A stretch of 64,000 nt of DNA from Tenacibaculum sp. MAR_2010_89 (GTDB lineage: Bacteria > Bacteroidota > Bacteroidia > Flavobacteriales > Flavobacteriaceae). A program made the position numbers and the translations under genes. Below are positions 50,853 through 58,642 of this stretch, one piece after another. Location of the stretch: contig NZ_FNUB01000005.1 in the NCBI RefSeq assembly GCF_900105985.1, positions 496,001-560,000 on the forward strand. Direction: 5' to 3'. The stretch's first letter is position 1. Every line of letters begins with the position of its first letter. Under the pieces are notes generated by a model that saw nothing but the letters and a program-made list of their open reading frames with translations, was not told the origin of the DNA and searched no databases.

Positions 50853-51071
50853 ATGTTAGGTTTAAATATTTTTAGATTAATAGGAGATTTTTTTGAATTC
50901 ATATTAACACCATTTAAGTGGTTACGCTTAGAAGTGGCAAAATCAGATGCTGGTTGGTGGACTTCTAACCTTATAAACTGGGTGTTTTTGTTAGTTCTTA
51001 TAGTTTTATTAGCGTATTGGATGAAAGAATCTTTACGTTTCAAAAATGAAGGAATAGAAGACAAAGCTTAA
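50853..51071 (+). CDS. Small membrane protein (DUF6341-like) upstream of trmB
   Basis: This 72-residue protein has one clear membrane helix (about 42-60, NLINWVFLLVLIVLLAYWM, 19 residues) and an amphipathic N-terminal stretch (LNIFRLIGDFFEFILTPFKWL, in part). The pattern KSDAGWWTSNLINW recalls DUF6341, a flavobacterial family. It is the first gene of a run with trmB, a LysE-family gene and an alkyltransferase-like gene. Function unknown. Confidence 0.7.
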   Translation: MLGLNIFRLIGDFFEFILTPFKWLRLEVAKSDAGWWTSNLINWVFLLVLIVLLAYWMKESLRFKNEGIEDKA

Positions 51072-52812: not shown

Positions 52813-52875
52813 TAGCTGAGATAAAATAGATATAAACAACCTGTTTAAAGCTAGTTGTATAAAGTTAATGACAAA

Positions 52876-54006
52876 ATGAGTTTTAAAAAACAAGATATAT
52901 ACAAAGCGTTAGAAACAATAACTGCTCCAGGAGAAGGTAAAAGTTTAGTAGAAAACGAAAATGTAACGAATGTTGTAACTTTTGGTGAAGAGGTAATAGT
53001 AGATGTTACAATCAATAATCCATCTTTACAAGCAAAGAAGAAAATTGAAGTTGAAATCATGAAAGCAATTCATGAGCATGTAGATCAAAAGATAGACGTT
53101 AAGGTAAACGTTAAAGTTGAGGTAGCGCCTAAAGAAAACCCAAATCAAATAAGAGGAAAAGAAATTCCAAACATCCAAAATATAATAGCTATAGCTTCTG
53201 GTAAAGGAGGTGTAGGGAAGTCTACAATAACTTCTAACATGGCAGTTTCATTAGCAAAAATGGGATTTAAAGTTGGTGTTTTAGATGCCGATGTGTATGG
53301 GCCTTCACAACATTTAATGTTTGATGTAGCTCAAGAAAAACCATTAGCTGTAAATGTTAAAGGGCGTTCAAAAATGAAGCCAGTTGAGAATTATGGAGTA
53401 AAGTTATTGTCTTTAGGTTTTTTTACAGACCCTAATCAAGCAGTTATTTGGAGAGGCCCAATGGCTTCAAAAGCATTAAATCAATTAATCTTTGATGCAG
53501 ATTGGGGAGAGCTAGATTTCTTATTAATTGATTTACCTCCAGGAACAGGAGACGTACATTTATCAATAGTTCAAGCTGTGCCAATTAATGGAGCAGTTGT
53601 AGTTAGTACTCCACAAAACATTGCTTTAGCTGATGCTAAAAAAGGAGTAGCAATGTTTAAACAAGAAAGCATCAATGTACCAGTATTAGGAATTGTTGAA
53701 AACATGGCGTATTTTACACCAGCGGAATTACCTGATAATAAATATTATATTTTTGGTCAAGGAGGAGCTAAAAATTTAGCAGAAGATATAGATACAAGCT
53801 TTTTAGGAGAGATACCTTTAGTGCAAAGTATTCGTGAAGCAGGTGATGTGGGTCATCCCGTAGCGTTACAAGAAAATACACCATTAGCAGAAGCGTTTAC
53901 AAACGCTACAAAAGAAATGGTTTCACAATTATTAAAAAGAAATGCAAATTTACCACCAACAGAAGTTGTTAGAATAACAACAATGAGTGGTTGTAGTACA
54001 AAATAA
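52876..54006 (+). CDS. apbC: Iron-sulfur cluster carrier ATPase ApbC/Mrp
   Basis: The 376-residue protein has an N-terminal MIP18/DUF59-type domain (about 1-85) and a P-loop ATPase with the deviant Walker A GKGGVGKST (about 109-117), DADVYGPSQH, and LIDLPPGTGD. It ends CSTK and has a Cys in MSGCSTK; I do not see the classic CxxC in its middle. It binds and delivers Fe-S clusters. I use the ATG at 52876; an in-frame TTG 7 codons upstream is less likely. The NifU-type gene follows 6 bases later, in one transcript. Confidence 0.92.
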   Translation: MSFKKQDIYKALETITAPGEGKSLVENENVTNVVTFGEEVIVDVTINNPSLQAKKKIEVEIMKAIHEHVDQKIDVKVNVKVEVAPKENPNQIRGKEIPNIQNIIAIASGKGGVGKSTITSNMAVSLAKMGFKVGVLDADVYGPSQHLMFDVAQEKPLAVNVKGRSKMKPVENYGVKLLSLGFFTDPNQAVIWRGPMASKALNQLIFDADWGELDFLLIDLPPGTGDVHLSIVQAVPINGAVVVSTPQNIALADAKKGVAMFKQESINVPVLGIVENMAYFTPAELPDNKYYIFGQGGAKNLAEDIDTSFLGEIPLVQSIREAGDVGHPVALQENTPLAEAFTNATKEMVSQLLKRNANLPPTEVVRITTMSGCSTK

Positions 54007-54012
54007 GTAGTT

Positions 54013-54249
54013 ATGGCAGCAACAGAAACAAGAAATAACGTAGAGAAAGCTTTAGAAGAAATTCGTCCTTTTTTAGTAAGTGATGGAGGAAATATTAAGT
54101 TGTTATCTATTGAAGAAAATACAGTTAAAGTTCAATTAGAAGGTGCTTGTAGTGGATGTTCAGTAAATCAAATGACCTTGAAAAATGGAGTTGAAGCTAC
54201 TATTAAAAAATATGCACCAGAAATTAAAGAGGTGATTAATGTAGCATAG
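54013..54249 (+). CDS. NifU C-terminal-type Fe-S scaffold protein (Nfu)
   Basis: This 78-residue protein is a stand-alone Nfu domain: RPFLVSDGGNIKLLSIE and GACSGCSVNQMTLKNGVE, with the cluster-binding CxxC at Cys46/Cys49. It carries a 4Fe-4S or 2Fe-2S cluster to target proteins and works with ApbC, encoded just upstream. The pair precedes the ferredoxin-reductase cluster, whose ferredoxin would be a client. Confidence 0.92.
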   Translation: MAATETRNNVEKALEEIRPFLVSDGGNIKLLSIEENTVKVQLEGACSGCSVNQMTLKNGVEATIKKYAPEIKEVINVA

Positions 54250-54316
54250 GCTGATATAAATCAGTTTTTAATTTAAGTTTACACTGTAAATTTGAACATT
54301 TAATTATTTAAAAAAT

Positions 54317-54346
54317 ATTCCTGTCTTTATATTTTAAGACAGGAAT
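54317..54346 (+). terminator. Terminator-like hairpin after the nfu gene
   Basis: Arms ATTCCTGTCTT and AAGACAGGAAT with an eight-base AT loop; no T-run follows, so termination may be partial. Confidence 0.5.
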
Positions 54347-54364
54347 CTCAGTATAAAAAAAGAA

Positions 54365-54372
54365 TATTTTTG
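54365..54372 (+). promoter_or_regulatory. -7 box of the ferredoxin-NADP reductase gene
   Basis: A perfect TATTTTTG, 8 bases before the ATG at 54381. It implies a very short leader and independent transcription of the redox cluster. Confidence 0.5.
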
Positions 54373-54380
54373 TAAAAGAA

Positions 54381-55436
54381 ATGATACAAACAGACATATT
54401 AATTATAGGTGCAGGACCAACAGGATTATTTACGGTTTTTGAAGCAGGGCTACTAAAACTTAGATGTCACTTAATTGATGCTTTAGCACAACCAGGTGGT
54501 CAATGCTCAGAGATATATCCTAAAAAGCCAATTTATGATATTCCAGCTTACCCAGAAATATTAGCAGGTGATCTAACAGATAAATTAATGGAGCAAATTA
54601 AACAATTTGAGCCAGGGTTTACTTTAGGAGAAAGAGCAGATACTATTGAAAAACAAGATGATGGAAGCTTTATTGTTACTACAAATAAAGGAACTAAACA
54701 TCAAGCACCAATAGTTGCTATTGCAGGTGGGTTAGGAAGTTTTGAACCACGTAAACCACCTATTCCAAATATAGTTGATTTTGAAGATAAGGGAGTTGAA
54801 TACATTATTAAGGAGCCTGAGTTGTATCGTGATAAAAACGTAGTAATTGCTGGAGGTGGCGATTCTGCTTTAGATTGGTCAATATTCTTAACTGATATAG
54901 CTAAATCTGTAACTTTAATTCATAGAAGAAATGAATTCCGTGGAGCATTAGATTCTGTTGACAAAGTACAAGAGTTAAAAGATGCTGGAAAGTTAATGTT
55001 AATAACACCAGCTGAAGTAAAAGGAATCGTTGGTACTGATACGGTAGAAGGTGTTATAGTTGAACAAAAAGATAAAGAAGCATTTACTTTACCTACGGAT
55101 CATTTCATTCCATTGTTTGGTTTATCTCCAAAATTAGGTCCTATTGCTGATTGGGGGTTAGAAATTGAAAAAAATGCCATAAAAGTAAACAATGCATTAG
55201 ATTATCAAACTAATATTCCTGGTATATACGCAATTGGTGATGTTAATACATATCCTGGTAAATTAAAGTTAATTTTATGCGGGTTTCATGAAGCAACATT
55301 GATGTGTCAAAGCGCTTATAAAAGAATTTTCCCAGATAAAAAATATGTAATGAAATATACTACTGTAGGTGGTGTTGATGGTTTTGATGGAACCAGAAAA
55401 GAGGCTCCTAAAGCTGTAGTTAAAAAAATTGAGTAA
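54381..55436 (+). CDS. Ferredoxin-NADP reductase, thioredoxin-reductase-like type
   Basis: This 351-residue flavoprotein has the FAD dinucleotide site IIGAGPTGLFTVFEAG (about 7-22), ALAQPGGQCSEIYPKKPIYD, the NADP site VVIAGGGDSALDWSI, and YAIGDVNTYPGKLKLILCGF for the flavin end. It lacks the CxxC of thioredoxin reductase, and the sequence is close in style to YumC-type FNR. It passes electrons between NADPH and ferredoxin. The four genes behind it (small membrane protein, hydroxylase-type enzyme, a second small membrane protein, ferredoxin) run on the same strand and look like its circuit. Confidence 0.9.
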   Translation: MIQTDILIIGAGPTGLFTVFEAGLLKLRCHLIDALAQPGGQCSEIYPKKPIYDIPAYPEILAGDLTDKLMEQIKQFEPGFTLGERADTIEKQDDGSFIVTTNKGTKHQAPIVAIAGGLGSFEPRKPPIPNIVDFEDKGVEYIIKEPELYRDKNVVIAGGGDSALDWSIFLTDIAKSVTLIHRRNEFRGALDSVDKVQELKDAGKLMLITPAEVKGIVGTDTVEGVIVEQKDKEAFTLPTDHFIPLFGLSPKLGPIADWGLEIEKNAIKVNNALDYQTNIPGIYAIGDVNTYPGKLKLILCGFHEATLMCQSAYKRIFPDKKYVMKYTTVGGVDGFDGTRKEAPKAVVKKIE

Positions 55437-55484
55437 CTCAATTAGAGTTTAAGTTTTACTTTAGATAATAATTAAATTAAAAAT

Positions 55485-55805
55485 ATGATTGCTTTAAATT
55501 TCTTAATAATTAATCCTTTTGAAAACTTGATTACAAGTTTTGATGTTTTTGTTATAAGTTCTTTATTTATTTTAATTTCTTATCTTAAATATATAGAAAA
55601 ACCTATAAAAAGAAAGGAAAAGGCTACCGTTTTTGAATTAGATATTCCAATCTATAAATCTAAAGACATTCTTTTACAAGGAAAGAATAATTACTTTACA
55701 AAAGATAAAAATTCTATTTGGGTTGATTTATTTGTAATTGCTTTTGTTTTTATAGTTATTATTACTCCTTTGCATGAGTTATTAGGTATTGAATACTTTT
55801 TATAA
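55485..55805 (+). CDS. Small membrane protein, paralogue of 56790-57137
   Basis: This 106-residue protein has two membrane helices (about 18-36 and 83-102) around a soluble middle with IYKSKDILLQGKNNYFTKDK and SIWVDLF. The paralogue downstream has IYDSKDILLQERTIESNYLI and SIWVKAI in the same place, and both end in TPL, then the short GI/GL tail. The shared block SKDILLQ, then SIWV, is not from any family I know. The two genes flank the hydroxylase-type gene. A role in holding or feeding the enzyme at the membrane is inference. Confidence 0.7.
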   Translation: MIALNFLIINPFENLITSFDVFVISSLFILISYLKYIEKPIKRKEKATVFELDIPIYKSKDILLQGKNNYFTKDKNSIWVDLFVIAFVFIVIITPLHELLGIEYFL

Positions 55806-55878
55806 ATAACTTGTTTAAACAACACATTAAAAAAGTATCTTAAGAAAGAAAGTTGAATTTATATTAAGAAAAAAATAA

Positions 55879-56778
55879 TTGACATTAACTGATTACATAG
55901 AACAATTAGCAAGCGATAAGCTTTTATATTTTGCATTACCAGTATTTTTTATTTCAATGTTGGTTGAATATCAATTTGCAAAAGAAAAATATCATGGTAA
56001 AGACACTGGCGTTTCGTTATTAATGATGGTTTTTTCTGCAATAATTGAATTTATTCCTAAGATTCTTGCTTTCGTAGCTTTTTTCTATTTACATGAAATA
56101 AGTCCTTTGAAAGATATCGTTCAACGTCAATGGTGGGCATGGGTTATTTTATTATTTGCAGATGATTTTGCGTATTATTGGTTTCATCGTTTAAATCACG
56201 AAGTTCGTTTATTTTGGGCTGGCCATGTACCGCATCATTCATCAATCCATATGAATTTGGGAACAGCATTGCGTCAAGGAGTTGGTGAACGTGTTCATAA
56301 GTTTTTCTTTTGGTTATGGATACCTCTTTTAGGTTTTGATCCATTAATGATGTTTATTATGATGGGAGTAAGTTTAATTTATCAGTTTTTTGTACATACA
56401 GAGTTAGTAAATAAGTTGCCTAAACCAATTGAGTTTATTTTTAATACGCCATCACATCATAGAGTTCATCATGCCTCAAATATTCGTTATTTGGATTGTA
56501 ATCATGCAGGAATTTTAATTATTTGGGATCGAATTTTTGGCACATTTTCTAAAGAATTAACCAATATTGATAAACCTGTATATGGATTAACAGTAAATAT
56601 TGAAACATTCAACCCTATTAAAGTAGCAACTCATGAATATGGAGCAATTTGGAAGGATGTTAAGAGAGCTAGTAAGTTGAAAGATAAGCTAAATTATATT
56701 TTTAACTCACCAGGTTGGAGCCATGACGGAGAAGATAAAAGAGCAAAGACTTTGAGAAAAAAGAAAGTGAATTGTTAA
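55879..56778 (+). CDS. Fatty acid hydroxylase / sterol desaturase superfamily protein
   Basis: This 299-residue membrane enzyme carries the di-iron histidine clusters of the superfamily: HRLNH (His103, His107), HVPHH (His116, His119, His120) and HHRVHH (His193, His194, His197, His198), between four or so membrane helices. It would hydroxylate or desaturate a lipid with O2 and two electrons. The start is TTG at 55879, right after an in-frame TAA, so no earlier start exists. The gene sits in a reductase-ferredoxin cluster that could supply its electrons. The product could be a hydroxylated fatty acid, carotenoid or hopanoid-like lipid. Confidence 0.9.
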   Translation: MTLTDYIEQLASDKLLYFALPVFFISMLVEYQFAKEKYHGKDTGVSLLMMVFSAIIEFIPKILAFVAFFYLHEISPLKDIVQRQWWAWVILLFADDFAYYWFHRLNHEVRLFWAGHVPHHSSIHMNLGTALRQGVGERVHKFFFWLWIPLLGFDPLMMFIMMGVSLIYQFFVHTELVNKLPKPIEFIFNTPSHHRVHHASNIRYLDCNHAGILIIWDRIFGTFSKELTNIDKPVYGLTVNIETFNPIKVATHEYGAIWKDVKRASKLKDKLNYIFNSPGWSHDGEDKRAKTLRKKKVNC

Positions 56779-56789
56779 AAAAGTAAACT

Positions 56790-57137
56790 ATGAATTTAAA
56801 TGCTGATTTATTAGGAGTAATTAATTGTTTGGGATTAAGTTATAAAACGGGTTTGTCAGGTTATGATTTATTTGCTTTTTTCTTAGGGTCATGCGTTGTT
56901 GTTAGTTTATTGATTTGGTATTATGGTAAAATATCAAGCTGCCAAACAATCAAGTTAAATGTAAGTGCTTTAATTTACGATTCAAAAGATATTCTTTTAC
57001 AAGAAAGAACTATAGAAAGCAATTATTTAATAGGAGAGAGTACTTCAATTTGGGTTAAAGCAATCATATATGTTTTAATAATATTAGTTGCTACAACTCC
57101 TTTATTTAAGCTTTTTGGATTACAATTATATATATAA
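56790..57137 (+). CDS. Small membrane protein, paralogue of 55485-55805
   Basis: This 115-residue protein has a membrane helix at about 26-46 and another at about 90-112, with a soluble block between (IYDSKDILLQERT, then STSIWVKAI). It matches its paralogue in the order helix - SKDILLQ block - SIWV helix - TPLFKLFGL tail. It starts 11 bases after the hydroxylase-type gene and ends 6 bases before ferredoxin, so its translation is linked to both. No function is known. Confidence 0.7.
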   Translation: MNLNADLLGVINCLGLSYKTGLSGYDLFAFFLGSCVVVSLLIWYYGKISSCQTIKLNVSALIYDSKDILLQERTIESNYLIGESTSIWVKAIIYVLIILVATTPLFKLFGLQLYI

Positions 57138-57143
57138 TTAATA

Positions 57144-57479
57144 ATGGATACTCAGGATATAAAAATAAAAATTACTGATAGGGAAGGGGTTACTCATGAG
57201 GTTATTGCACCTACTGATATGGCTATGAATTTAATGGAAGTTGTTCGTTCTTATGAATTAGCTCCTGAAGGTACAATAGGTATTTGTGGAGGTATGGCAA
57301 TGTGTGCATCATGTCAGTGTTATGTGAAATCTGATCATGAATTACCTGAAATGACTGATGATGAAGATGCAATGTTAGCTGAAGCTTTTGATGTAGAAGA
57401 TAACAGTCGTTTAGGGTGTCAAATACAAATGACTCCTGAAATGGATGGTTTAGAAGTTGAATTAGCTCCTGAGAGCTAA
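57144..57479 (+). CDS. Adrenodoxin-type 2Fe-2S ferredoxin
   Basis: This 111-residue electron carrier has the cluster ligands Cys48, Cys54, Cys57 (IGICGGMAMCASC) and Cys92, the adrenodoxin/Fdx spacing C-x5-C-x2-C-xn-C. It is very acidic, as such ferredoxins are. It ends the redox operon that begins with its likely reductase at 54381. Its final codons are repeated at 58816-58851. It is tail to tail with the flavodoxin gene on the other strand, with one gene between. Confidence 0.93.
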   Translation: MDTQDIKIKITDREGVTHEVIAPTDMAMNLMEVVRSYELAPEGTIGICGGMAMCASCQCYVKSDHELPEMTDDEDAMLAEAFDVEDNSRLGCQIQMTPEMDGLEVELAPES

Positions 57480-57485
57480 TTCAAC
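57450..57485 (+). repeat. 36-base repeat, copy 1 (ferredoxin 3' end, hairpin)
   Basis: It covers the last 9 codons of ferredoxin, its stop, and the following bases. The arms GTTGAATTAGCTC and GAGCTAATTCAAC pair over 13 bases around CTGA. Copy 2 lies at 58816-58851, identical at 34 of 36 bases, in the same orientation. Confidence 0.85.
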
Positions 57486-57505
57486 TGTGTTATTGTTGGT
57501 TAAAT

Positions 57506-58642
57506 TTAATTTTTAACTTGTTCTTTGATCTTTACTTCTTTTTTGATTGGAGGTAATCTTTTTCTCAAAAATAAAATTTGACCTAAATGACTAGATTGGT
57601 GTTCCATAATGTGAAACCAAGACCATTGATTAGATAATGTTTTTCCAGGGTTTACTTCTTTAAACCATTTATCATCTCTTTTTCGTAATTCTTCAATAGT
57701 TTTTTTTCTAACTGCATCAAATATTTCCAAGTAATAACTTATTGGTTTGCCCTTAAGTATTTCTCTACCTTTTTCATCTAAATCCATTCCAGCTTTCCAT
57801 AATTCAGGTTCTTTTTCTTCAAAAACAGATTTGCCAAACGTGTATTTCTGATAATAAACTTCGGCTGCAGCTAAATGCATTACCAATGCACCAATACGAT
57901 TTGCTTTAGGATCGTGTAAGTGATCAACATGTTCAAGAGGTAGGTTTTTTACTATTCGATGAACTCTAGCTTTTAAATCTTCTAGCATAGAAATCATATT
58001 GTCAATTTGAGGATTTTCAGCATCCTTTTTACCTATTTTACCATACTCGTATTCAGGAACTTTAATACCTGAACCAATGATTAATAATGATCTTTTACCA
58101 GAAACTGCATCTGAACTAGATGATAATTTAAATTCTTTTATTCGTCTAATTTTTTTCTTATTAGTAGATTCTCTCCAGCTTTTTATTTCTTGATTAGCTA
58201 CTTTTTTTTCGAAATCACTATTTAGAATGCTAACTTTTTTAAATTCTCCATTTTCATCTTCTATGAACAATCTTATATTGTCAAAATAAAACTTACCATT
58301 ATTAATACATAATCCCCCAAAATTTAAACTTTTAGAGTTTTTGTTCAAAGTACCCTCAATGGTGTATTCTTTCCAATTGTTATCTTTTACACCTCTATCT
58401 TGCATGTTATCAAAAAAACCTCGTTCAGAGTTTTTTGTATCTACTCTTGCCCATAAGCCTGCCCAAGCAATTTTGTCAGCAGGTTCAACTTTAATACTTC
58501 CAATTAACTTGAATTTTATTTCAGAATCAGATGTTATATCAATAGATTGTGTAAAAGAAGTCCAGCTTCTAGATATTTCTTTTTTAGATTGAGAAAAAAT
58601 AGAGATACTGAATAAAAAGAAAATAAAAAATAACTTTTTCAT
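57506..58642 (-). CDS. Secreted DinB-like protein with N-terminal beta-sandwich
   Basis: This 378-residue protein has a signal peptide (about 1-18), a carbohydrate-binding-like beta-sandwich (about 20-150; SLNFGGLCINNGKFYFDNIR is typical), a linker, and a C-terminal DinB four-helix bundle. The DinB metal ligands appear as His256 in LVMHLAAAE and the H-x3-H-x3-H run His344/348/352 (HIMEHQSSH). DinB proteins bind a divalent metal; many act as thiol-dependent transferases. An exported form with a sandwich domain is unusual. The gene stands alone between two copies of a 36-base repeat. Confidence 0.82.
   Translation of the reverse strand: MKKLFFIFFLFSISIFSQSKKEISRSWTSFTQSIDITSDSEIKFKLIGSIKVEPADKIAWAGLWARVDTKNSERGFFDNMQDRGVKDNNWKEYTIEGTLNKNSKSLNFGGLCINNGKFYFDNIRLFIEDENGEFKKVSILNSDFEKKVANQEIKSWRESTNKKKIRRIKEFKLSSSSDAVSGKRSLLIIGSGIKVPEYEYGKIGKKDAENPQIDNMISMLEDLKARVHRIVKNLPLEHVDHLHDPKANRIGALVMHLAAAEVYYQKYTFGKSVFEEKEPELWKAGMDLDEKGREILKGKPISYYLEIFDAVRKKTIEELRKRDDKWFKEVNPGKTLSNQWSWFHIMEHQSSHLGQILFLRKRLPPIKKEVKIKEQVKN

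Follow-up and report, generated by a model that had tools for sequence, protein, structure and literature searches.

In ferr_ferrR_AlkB, an alkane monooxygenase, AlkB is fused to a ferredoxin reductase and a ferredoxin in a single polypeptide (PMC8918992), and the non-haem di-iron beta-carotene hydroxylases take their electrons from ferredoxin and a ferredoxin oxidoreductase (PMC2288588), according to the excerpts of these reports used here. For alkylglycerol monooxygenase (AGMO), the excerpted report lists nine essential histidines together with Q162, D233, N235, Y236, W243 and D244, and the animal enzyme is described as dependent on tetrahydrobiopterin, not on ferredoxin (PMC7911779).

We analysed a window of 64,000 nucleotides from Tenacibaculum sp. 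MAR_2010_89. Like ferr_ferrR_AlkB, the locus studied here brings together a di-iron hydroxylase of the membrane type, a ferredoxin reductase and a ferredoxin of its own, but the functions are carried by three genes and the enzyme belongs to PF04116, whereas the fused protein is described as an alkane hydroxylase. The beta-carotene hydroxylase is likewise a histidine-motif membrane enzyme needing ferredoxin and an oxidoreductase, a likeness in description; it acts on a carotenoid, while no sign of a carotenoid substrate was seen at this locus. Searches of open-licence PMC articles returned none that dealt with the operon, with the small proteins or with an AGMO linked to ferredoxin, which is no proof of their absence elsewhere.

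Layout of the locus and its redox proteins

The initial annotation had described five genes on one strand with gaps of 6 to 73 bases; all five are real and stand where it placed them, with intergenic gaps from FNR1 to the ferredoxin of 48, 73, 11 and 6 bases. The Mrp ATPase encoded upstream scored 284.9 bits with the ApbC model, under the cut-off of 348. Three terminator-like sites were found between 52,500 and 57,700, with 1.9 expected. A scan for separate promoters gave no signal: promoter-like matches were fewer than in shuffled sequences (15 versus a mean of 27.1), and a Bacteroidetes-style promoter pattern matched 8 times in the window, 8.6 being expected, and 0 times in 54,000-57,500.

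Table 1. Annotated features of the locus (positions within the window; assignments are predictions)
Feature	Position	Strand	Remarks
72-aa membrane protein, outside the system	50853-51071	+	rate-of-change control
Mrp/ApbC-type Fe-S cluster carrier ATPase	52855-54006	+	constant upstream neighbour; PF10609 305 bits
NifU-like (Nfu) Fe-S scaffold domain protein	54013-54249	+	constant upstream neighbour
FNR1, thioredoxin-reductase-like ferredoxin-NADP reductase	54381-55436	+	351 aa; Pyr_redox_2, solved FNR relatives, no CxxC
Small protein 1, hypervariable family, predicted to have two membrane helices	55485-55805	+	106 aa
Membrane di-iron hydroxylase, FA_hydroxylase superfamily, AGMO-like residues	55879-56778	+	299 aa; TTG start
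Small protein 2, paralogue of small protein 1	56790-57137	+	115 aa; 6 bases to ferredoxin gene
Fdx1, adrenodoxin-type [2Fe-2S] ferredoxin	57144-57479	+	111 aa
Terminator-like hairpin, 14 pairs	57455-57486	+	overlaps ferredoxin gene end; consensus match

The best solved relative of FNR1 is 5ygq, deposited as 'Ferredoxin--NADP reductase' (E 9.5e-107), followed by 3ab1 (E 2e-70) and 3lzw (E 2.3e-69). The thioredoxin reductase model reached 143.9 bits against a cut-off of 343.45. Thioredoxin reductases are recognised by a redox CxxC, and this motif was absent from the FNR1 sequence. By its kinship and the missing CxxC, FNR1 is classed as a ferredoxin-NADP reductase of the thioredoxin reductase type. 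Fdx1 matched PF00111 barely above the cut-off (21.1 bits versus 21); its solved relatives are of the adrenodoxin and putidaredoxin types, and its cysteines, C48-x5-C54-x2-C57 and a distant C92, follow the adrenodoxin-type pattern. An assignment of Fdx1 as ISC-system ferredoxin (TIGR02007) was rejected at 37.2 bits against a cut-off of 132.1.

The hydroxylase, to which the initial annotation had ascribed a full set of histidine clusters, matched PF04116 with 93.6 bits (cut-off 31) and does carry the HxxxH, HxxHH and HxxHH motifs by which the FA_hydroxylase superfamily is recognised. Compared with the AGMO residues in the excerpted report (PMC7911779), it shares the nine histidines and Gln162, as well as Asp233, Asn235, Trp243 and Asp244 at the same spacing, whereas Y236 of AGMO is a histidine in this enzyme. 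The last four shared residues are present in all 7 paralogues of the hydroxylase in its own genome, so that only Q162, found in 1 of the 7, discriminates for AGMO likeness. The sole NCBIfam model matched was NF052566, the ornithine lipid hydroxylase OlsE, an identity that we rejected at 51.9 bits versus a cut-off of 475.

Conservation of the probable electron-transfer genes

In 41 of the 42 Tenacibaculum-group genomes with the hydroxylase, the three genes follow each other as FNR-hydroxylase-ferredoxin; in the exception, G144, the hydroxylase lies apart from the other two genes. Two further Flavobacteriaceae records have the same order, and a third matches it up to a contig end within the hydroxylase. 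This gene order supports the view that FNR, hydroxylase and ferredoxin form one unit, as does the known supply of electrons to membrane di-iron enzymes by a ferredoxin and its reductase; the idea that all five genes make a single system held for these three and failed for the small proteins. Two ferredoxins are kept in 36 of 42 genomes with the hydroxylase versus 13 of 124 without it. Few changes underlie this link, since an Mrp tree of 68 genomes shows 5 changes of label, and a test with independent pairs decided nothing. A similar FNR or ferredoxin was absent from the stretches covered at the other 64 of 80 named loci, covering relatives down to 40% identity and with short flanks in several; by eye, no ferredoxin-reductase pair was obvious in the ORF lists of 10 of those 64. 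The hydroxylase can thus work without this pair as a neighbour.

We found also a second FNR-ferredoxin pair in the same genome (run L330), surrounded by genes for sulfite reductase, tetrapyrrole methylase, sirohaem synthase and cysteine metabolism. Like FNR1-Fdx1, it adjoins an enzyme using such electrons, here the sulfite reductase, but unlike the locus it has no hydroxylase, small protein or Mrp-Nfu genes beside it. Among the 27 loci checked, all 19 Mrp-unlinked FNR-ferredoxin pairs were in a sulfite reductase/cysteine setting. FNR1 is 87% identical to the FNR of the second pair and Fdx1 88-89% identical to Fdx2, and each ferredoxin might serve both acceptors.

A hypervariable family of small membrane proteins

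The paralogy proposed for the two small proteins was confirmed (E 5.4e-7, about 39% identity over about 54 residues). Their C-terminal halves are 41% identical and their N-terminal halves 16%, below the mean of 24% for the shuffled whole proteins. They had been said to fit no family, and indeed no Pfam or NCBIfam model matched either above its cut-off: NCBIfam gave none, and Pfam gave weak matches of small protein 1 only, to 7tm_1 (E 0.0072, 16.3 bits, cut-off 30.5) and Sigma_reg_N (E 0.35). Extended to 19 family members, the Pfam search touched 19 families with 1-2 members each (best E 5.7e-05), none of them shared; PADLOC matched one member at E 0.035, and the best E value of a PDB profile search with the family was 0.84. 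Matches to the small proteins within their own genome (E 0.0027, 0.119 and 0.295) were taken as chance. Two helices were predicted in 28 of 28 family members, in which K/R counts were 22, 179 and 4 for N-end, loop and C-end, and the proteins are predicted to span the membrane twice with a basic loop in the cytosol.

After five genomes had been dropped (G003, G034, G100, G182 and G188; E 2.2e-4 to 0.0089), the family was counted in 48 of 166 genomes. Its presence does not track the hydroxylase, as the initial annotation would have had it: 16 of 42 genomes with the enzyme and 32 of 124 without it have a member (Fisher p = 0.17, no association). Mrp and/or Nfu lie upstream of the small-protein gene in 46 of the 48. 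FNR is directly upstream in 25, with a following ferredoxin in 5 and none within the stretch fetched in the other 20, and it lies upstream in the locus, not adjacent, in 15 more. A member is found inside the FNR-hydroxylase-ferredoxin locus in 15 genomes. A draw of 346 genomes from the order gave 4 matches, of which 3 belong to the genus; the one outside it, in G474, is weak (E 6.6e-5), has none of the usual neighbour genes within the stretch covered and was taken as chance. In-frame stops were read as decay at first sight in G014, G028, G033, G037 and G148, where the gene merely ends earlier; G036 and G038 have stops too, and their loci were not settled like those five.

Sequence divergence was compared between close genomes, leaving out of the pair counts 4 of the 48 that gave no usable frame (80-230 aa); for 35 of the remaining 44, the locus used included Mrp. 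In 18 of 33 close pairs the small protein was less than 45% identical; in these pairs, where compared, FNR was 91-100%, the hydroxylase 91-99% and the ferredoxin 94-100% identical. For 25 of these pairs the 72-aa control membrane protein had 76-99% identity, each time more than the small protein. Breaks in similarity fall inside the small-protein gene, between flanks that are 88-97% identical, and one gain of a small gene is a short recombination tract (G196 versus G100). In the 16 most alike pairs dN/dS was 0.14-0.47, which places the family under purifying selection by this measure. What is new, judged from these alignments, is that the family occupies one chromosomal spot as a slot for hypervariable alleles, swapped between related species. 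Coupling to the ferredoxin is possible in some lineages, since the family is under purifying selection and 17 of 18 small-protein genes adjoining a ferredoxin gene lie 1-16 bases from it.

Proposed explanation and alternatives

The best explanation as a whole, to which we give a probability of roughly 0.7, is a ferredoxin-fed hydroxylase accompanied by exchanged small-protein alleles that are not its subunits. Electrons would most likely pass from NADPH to the FAD of FNR1, to the [2Fe-2S] cluster of Fdx1 and on to the hydroxylase, whose gene lies between theirs. With O2, this enzyme would oxidise a membrane lipid; the AGMO-like residues suggest an alkyl chain adjoining a heteroatom as a possible target. 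The hydroxylase gene would have been inserted between those for FNR and ferredoxin, on the downstream side of the iron-sulfur genes Mrp-Nfu. The small proteins would stand outside the circuit as alleles of a lineage-restricted, putative two-helix membrane protein, whose gene sits just downstream of Mrp-Nfu(-FNR) irrespective of hydroxylase or ferredoxin and whose sequence would be exchanged between species by recombination via the conserved flanking genes. As a tentative extension, the small genes could encode a recognition- or exclusion-type membrane protein in a fixed slot, with the conserved iron-sulfur/ferredoxin operon genes as recombination arms and two alleles flanking the hydroxylase, giving several specificities at once. 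Such roles might include protection from a competitor's toxin, keeping phages out or recognising kin.

A possible but doubtful alternative has the small proteins serving FNR1, or the Mrp-Nfu iron-sulfur machinery, as adaptors at the membrane, constrained only in their C-terminal half. The frequent FNR gene upstream, adjacent or not, is consistent with it, and so is the better kept C-terminal half in G123/G141 (84% versus 28% for the N-terminal half); however, the small gene follows Nfu without FNR in six genomes, FNR is present in 156 of 166 genomes and the family in 48, and alleles down to 20-30% identity lie beside FNR proteins that are 98-100% identical. For the electron-transfer genes, it is rather unlikely that FNR1-Fdx1 serves general or iron-sulfur metabolism with the hydroxylase as a mere co-transcribed neighbour. 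The ferredoxin is indeed present in 213 of 249 genomes at family level and adjoins Mrp and/or Nfu, with no hydroxylase there, in 25 of 29 loci read, but the hydroxylase keeps its place between FNR and ferredoxin in 41 of 42 genomes despite GrpB, a 23S-IVP protein and other insertions in the same gaps, and the second FNR-ferredoxin pair adjoins another ferredoxin-type acceptor.

That the small gene is neutral or decaying filler, drifting fast and without function, we consider improbable: its presence is patchy, the proteins have no homologues of known function, and the matched stretches of G050 and G108 contain several in-frame stops and appear degraded, yet the low dN/dS and the two helices kept throughout speak against it, and divergence near saturation beside such similar flanks could not be produced by drift at a neutral rate. 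The initial suggestion, in which the two small proteins would act as dedicated subunits tethering the FNR-ferredoxin-hydroxylase circuit to the membrane, agrees with the short distance from small protein 2 to the ferredoxin gene, the 15 loci holding a member and a predicted loop in the cytosol, where redox partners would be, but is highly improbable. As a general rule it was dropped on the distribution of the family: the hydroxylase is missing from 32 of 48 family genomes, the family from 26 of 42 genomes with the hydroxylase, and 20 FNR-linked members have no ferredoxin within the stretch fetched. Small paralogues are thus widespread apart from hydroxylase or ferredoxin, an outcome that the initial annotation had named as refuting. 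The small protein also varies beside partners conserved at 91-100%, unlike a fitted subunit.

On the reading preferred here, of a ferredoxin-fed hydroxylase beside exchanged alleles, the three-gene set offers a test bed for the lipid oxidised by a marine flavobacterial PF04116 enzyme and for the question whether ferredoxin can replace pterin in driving an AGMO-like enzyme. With one FNR-ferredoxin pair at a sulfite reductase and its duplicate at the hydroxylase, carriers seem to be matched to consumers by location, which a single strain would suffice to test. Of greater importance than the hydroxylase part are the small proteins. Near-unrelated alleles swapped between sister species within a housekeeping operon imply selection from outside the cell's redox machinery, because the neighbouring genes barely change, and learning what the small proteins respond to could uncover a recognition or protection system.

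The gene run and its redox core

The five genes and the gaps between them lie where the initial annotation had placed them; the genome measures 4.17 Mb and is assembled into 5 contigs. Tenacibaculum accounts for most of the hydroxylase's named close relatives (78-89% identity), and the 166 genomes compared are therefore termed the Tenacibaculum group, here the genus (G, compared genome; L, locus read; C, contig).

Features of the window and related loci in the same genome
Feature	Position	Strand	Description
Mrp/ApbC-type ATPase	52855..54006		upstream of the five-gene run
NifU-domain protein (Nfu)	54013..54249		upstream of the five-gene run
Five-gene run	54381-57479	+	FNR, small protein 1, hydroxylase, small protein 2, ferredoxin
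FNR		+	thioredoxin-reductase-like kind
Hydroxylase		+	PF04116
Ferredoxin		+	adrenodoxin kind
Terminator-like hairpin			3' of ferredoxin, closing the run
PF04978 gene	57506-58642	-	DinB/mycothiol-transferase-like domain at residues 218-362; N-terminal half of ~200 residues with no domain match, start resembling a signal peptide
Second FNR-ferredoxin pair	L330:3977-14946; C5 ~1.428-1.439 Mb		within a run of genes for sulfite reductase, sirohaem and cysteine
Seven more FA_hydroxylase-type paralogues	C5 2.24, 0.32, 3.30, 2.35, 2.81, 1.69 Mb; C4 0.53 Mb

FNR was found in 156/166 genomes of the genus, the ferredoxin in 155/166 and this hydroxylase in 42/166 (E up to 1e-110). All 42 hydroxylase loci were read, and 41 keep the order FNR, hydroxylase, ferredoxin, the exception being G144, with its hydroxylase located elsewhere; Mrp and Nfu lie upstream in 40 of the 41, the remaining locus being interrupted by a contig end. 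This maintained order supports the circuit from NADPH through FNR and ferredoxin to the hydroxylase, which we infer, as the initial annotation did, on sound and rather ordinary grounds. Among 80 named hydroxylase loci, 15 have the same order, one more runs FNR-hydroxylase to a contig end, and in 64 FNR and ferredoxin of this kind are absent from the examined stretch; three of the order-bearing loci, including the contig-cut one, are from Flavobacteriaceae not named Tenacibaculum.

For AGMO (alkylglycerol monooxygenase), a review (PMC7911779) lists by number nine histidines and another six residues as essential. On that numbering, the hydroxylase has the histidine blocks, Gln162, Asp233, Asn235, Trp243 and Asp244 at equal spacing, and a His in place of Tyr236. 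Since four of the matching residues are common to all seven own-genome paralogues tested, only Gln162 discriminates, setting the hydroxylase apart jointly with one of the seven. We describe the enzyme as AGMO-like and do not call it AGMO.

An older iron-sulfur frame and a second redox pair

The ferredoxin is present in 213/249 genomes of the Flavobacteriaceae. In the stretch examined around 29 ferredoxin loci outside the genus, Mrp and/or Nfu lay upstream in 25 and FNR in 12, and none of the 29 held the hydroxylase or a small protein. The frame is older, so the hydroxylase entered, or was retained in, a housekeeping iron-sulfur/ferredoxin neighbourhood.

The second FNR-ferredoxin pair (FNR 87%, ferredoxin 89% identical to that of the window) lies downstream of a sulfite/nitrite reductase, flanked by sirohaem genes and by a hexapeptide transferase (PF00132) and a PLP enzyme (PF00291), which we take to be serine acetyltransferase and cysteine synthase, respectively. 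Of 27 loci checked, 19 were unlinked to Mrp-Nfu, all 19 in the cysteine neighbourhood. Two ferredoxins occur in 36/42 genomes with the hydroxylase versus 13/124 without (p = 2e-19); this association is weakened by the relatedness of the genomes: a tree built from 68 Mrp genes shows only 5 changes of the hydroxylase label, and a comparison of independent pairs leaves the matter undecided.

Distribution and architecture of the small proteins

A profile built from 19 members of the small-protein family matched 53/166 genomes of the genus at E up to 0.01, and 48 (E up to 1.1e-6) were retained for counts. The small gene follows FNR with neither hydroxylase nor ferredoxin in the examined stretch in 20 of these, stands between FNR and ferredoxin without hydroxylase in 5, lies behind Nfu without FNR in 6 (one then followed by ferredoxin), and falls within the FNR-hydroxylase-ferredoxin locus in 15, of which the window alone has small genes on both sides of the hydroxylase; the other two are a copy at a contig end and one apart from Mrp-Nfu. 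Mrp and/or Nfu are upstream in 46/48. Presence of hydroxylase and small protein showed no association across the 166 genomes (p = 0.17). The proposal that the small proteins are dedicated hydroxylase subunits is, with these mostly hydroxylase-free contexts, refuted as a general rule. A search of 346 genomes drawn from the order matched 4, three belonging to the genus; the small-protein family therefore seems confined to this lineage. A tandem pair of members behind FNR, without hydroxylase, occurs at L280 and L281 (G135, G136).

All 28 members tested have two hydrophobic stretches. Because Lys and Arg concentrate between them (179, against 22 before and 4 after), the loop carrying the SKDILLQ and SIWV blocks is predicted by the positive-inside rule to be cytosolic, with both ends outside; it also holds 137/213 acidic residues. 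No known family fitted in Pfam, PADLOC and PDB profile searches. Longer members (L107 in G114, 179 aa; L120 in G158, 170 aa; L282 in G145, 187 aa; and those of G004 and G008, 181-182 aa) share an additional mid-protein hydrophobic stretch and are perhaps fused or inserted copies.

A hypervariable slot

In 33 genome pairs whose Mrp genes share at least 87% DNA identity (pairs not mutually independent), the best small-protein identity was <45% in 18, 45-70% in 10 and at least 70% in 5. Where both sequences were available, FNR was 91-100% (22 pairs), hydroxylase 91-99% and ferredoxin 94-100% identical. The control was a 72-aa membrane protein that is encoded ~5.7 kb upstream of small protein 2 and occurs in 155/166 genomes; it was better conserved than the small protein in 25/25 close pairs (20 genomes, pairs not mutually independent), with median identities of 90% versus 37%, and 24% for shuffled small proteins. 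The slot is hypervariable.

Along the locus, DNA identity breaks sharply. For G127/G187 it is 88-96% upstream, 93% downstream and 37-53% inside the small gene; for G123/G141, 52-54% in the first half of the gene and 81-89% in the second; and for G127/G140, 93-97% throughout. The dN/dS of 0.14-0.47 in the 16 most alike pairs shows that purifying selection acts on the gene where alleles are alike, and the unlike alleles cannot be the product of drift. Between G196 and G100, FNR and hydroxylase are 95-100% identical, and G196 alone has the small gene; identity falls to 83% over the final portion of the hydroxylase and 93% at the first part of the ferredoxin, where G196 aligns nearer G195, which is the mark of a short recombination import.

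The gaps that hold the small genes also harbour others. In 7/71 loci (L037, L044, L100, L102, L108, L112, L127; genomes G021, G027, G100, G105, G115, G126, G196), FNR and hydroxylase are separated by a GrpB-family gene, PF04229 being shown for the L044 copy. 23S rRNA-intervening-sequence proteins are normally met in rRNA inserts; here such a gene (PF05635) stands free in gaps before the ferredoxin in 2/71 loci (L038 and L135; G054 and G102). The FNR-hydroxylase gap of L122 (G187) holds a 78-aa soluble-looking gene with no Pfam match.

What is unexpected is that a conserved redox operon holds a membrane protein that is hypervariable and exchanged. On the boldest reading, drawn from the pattern alone, the small proteins may have a role in recognition or exclusion.
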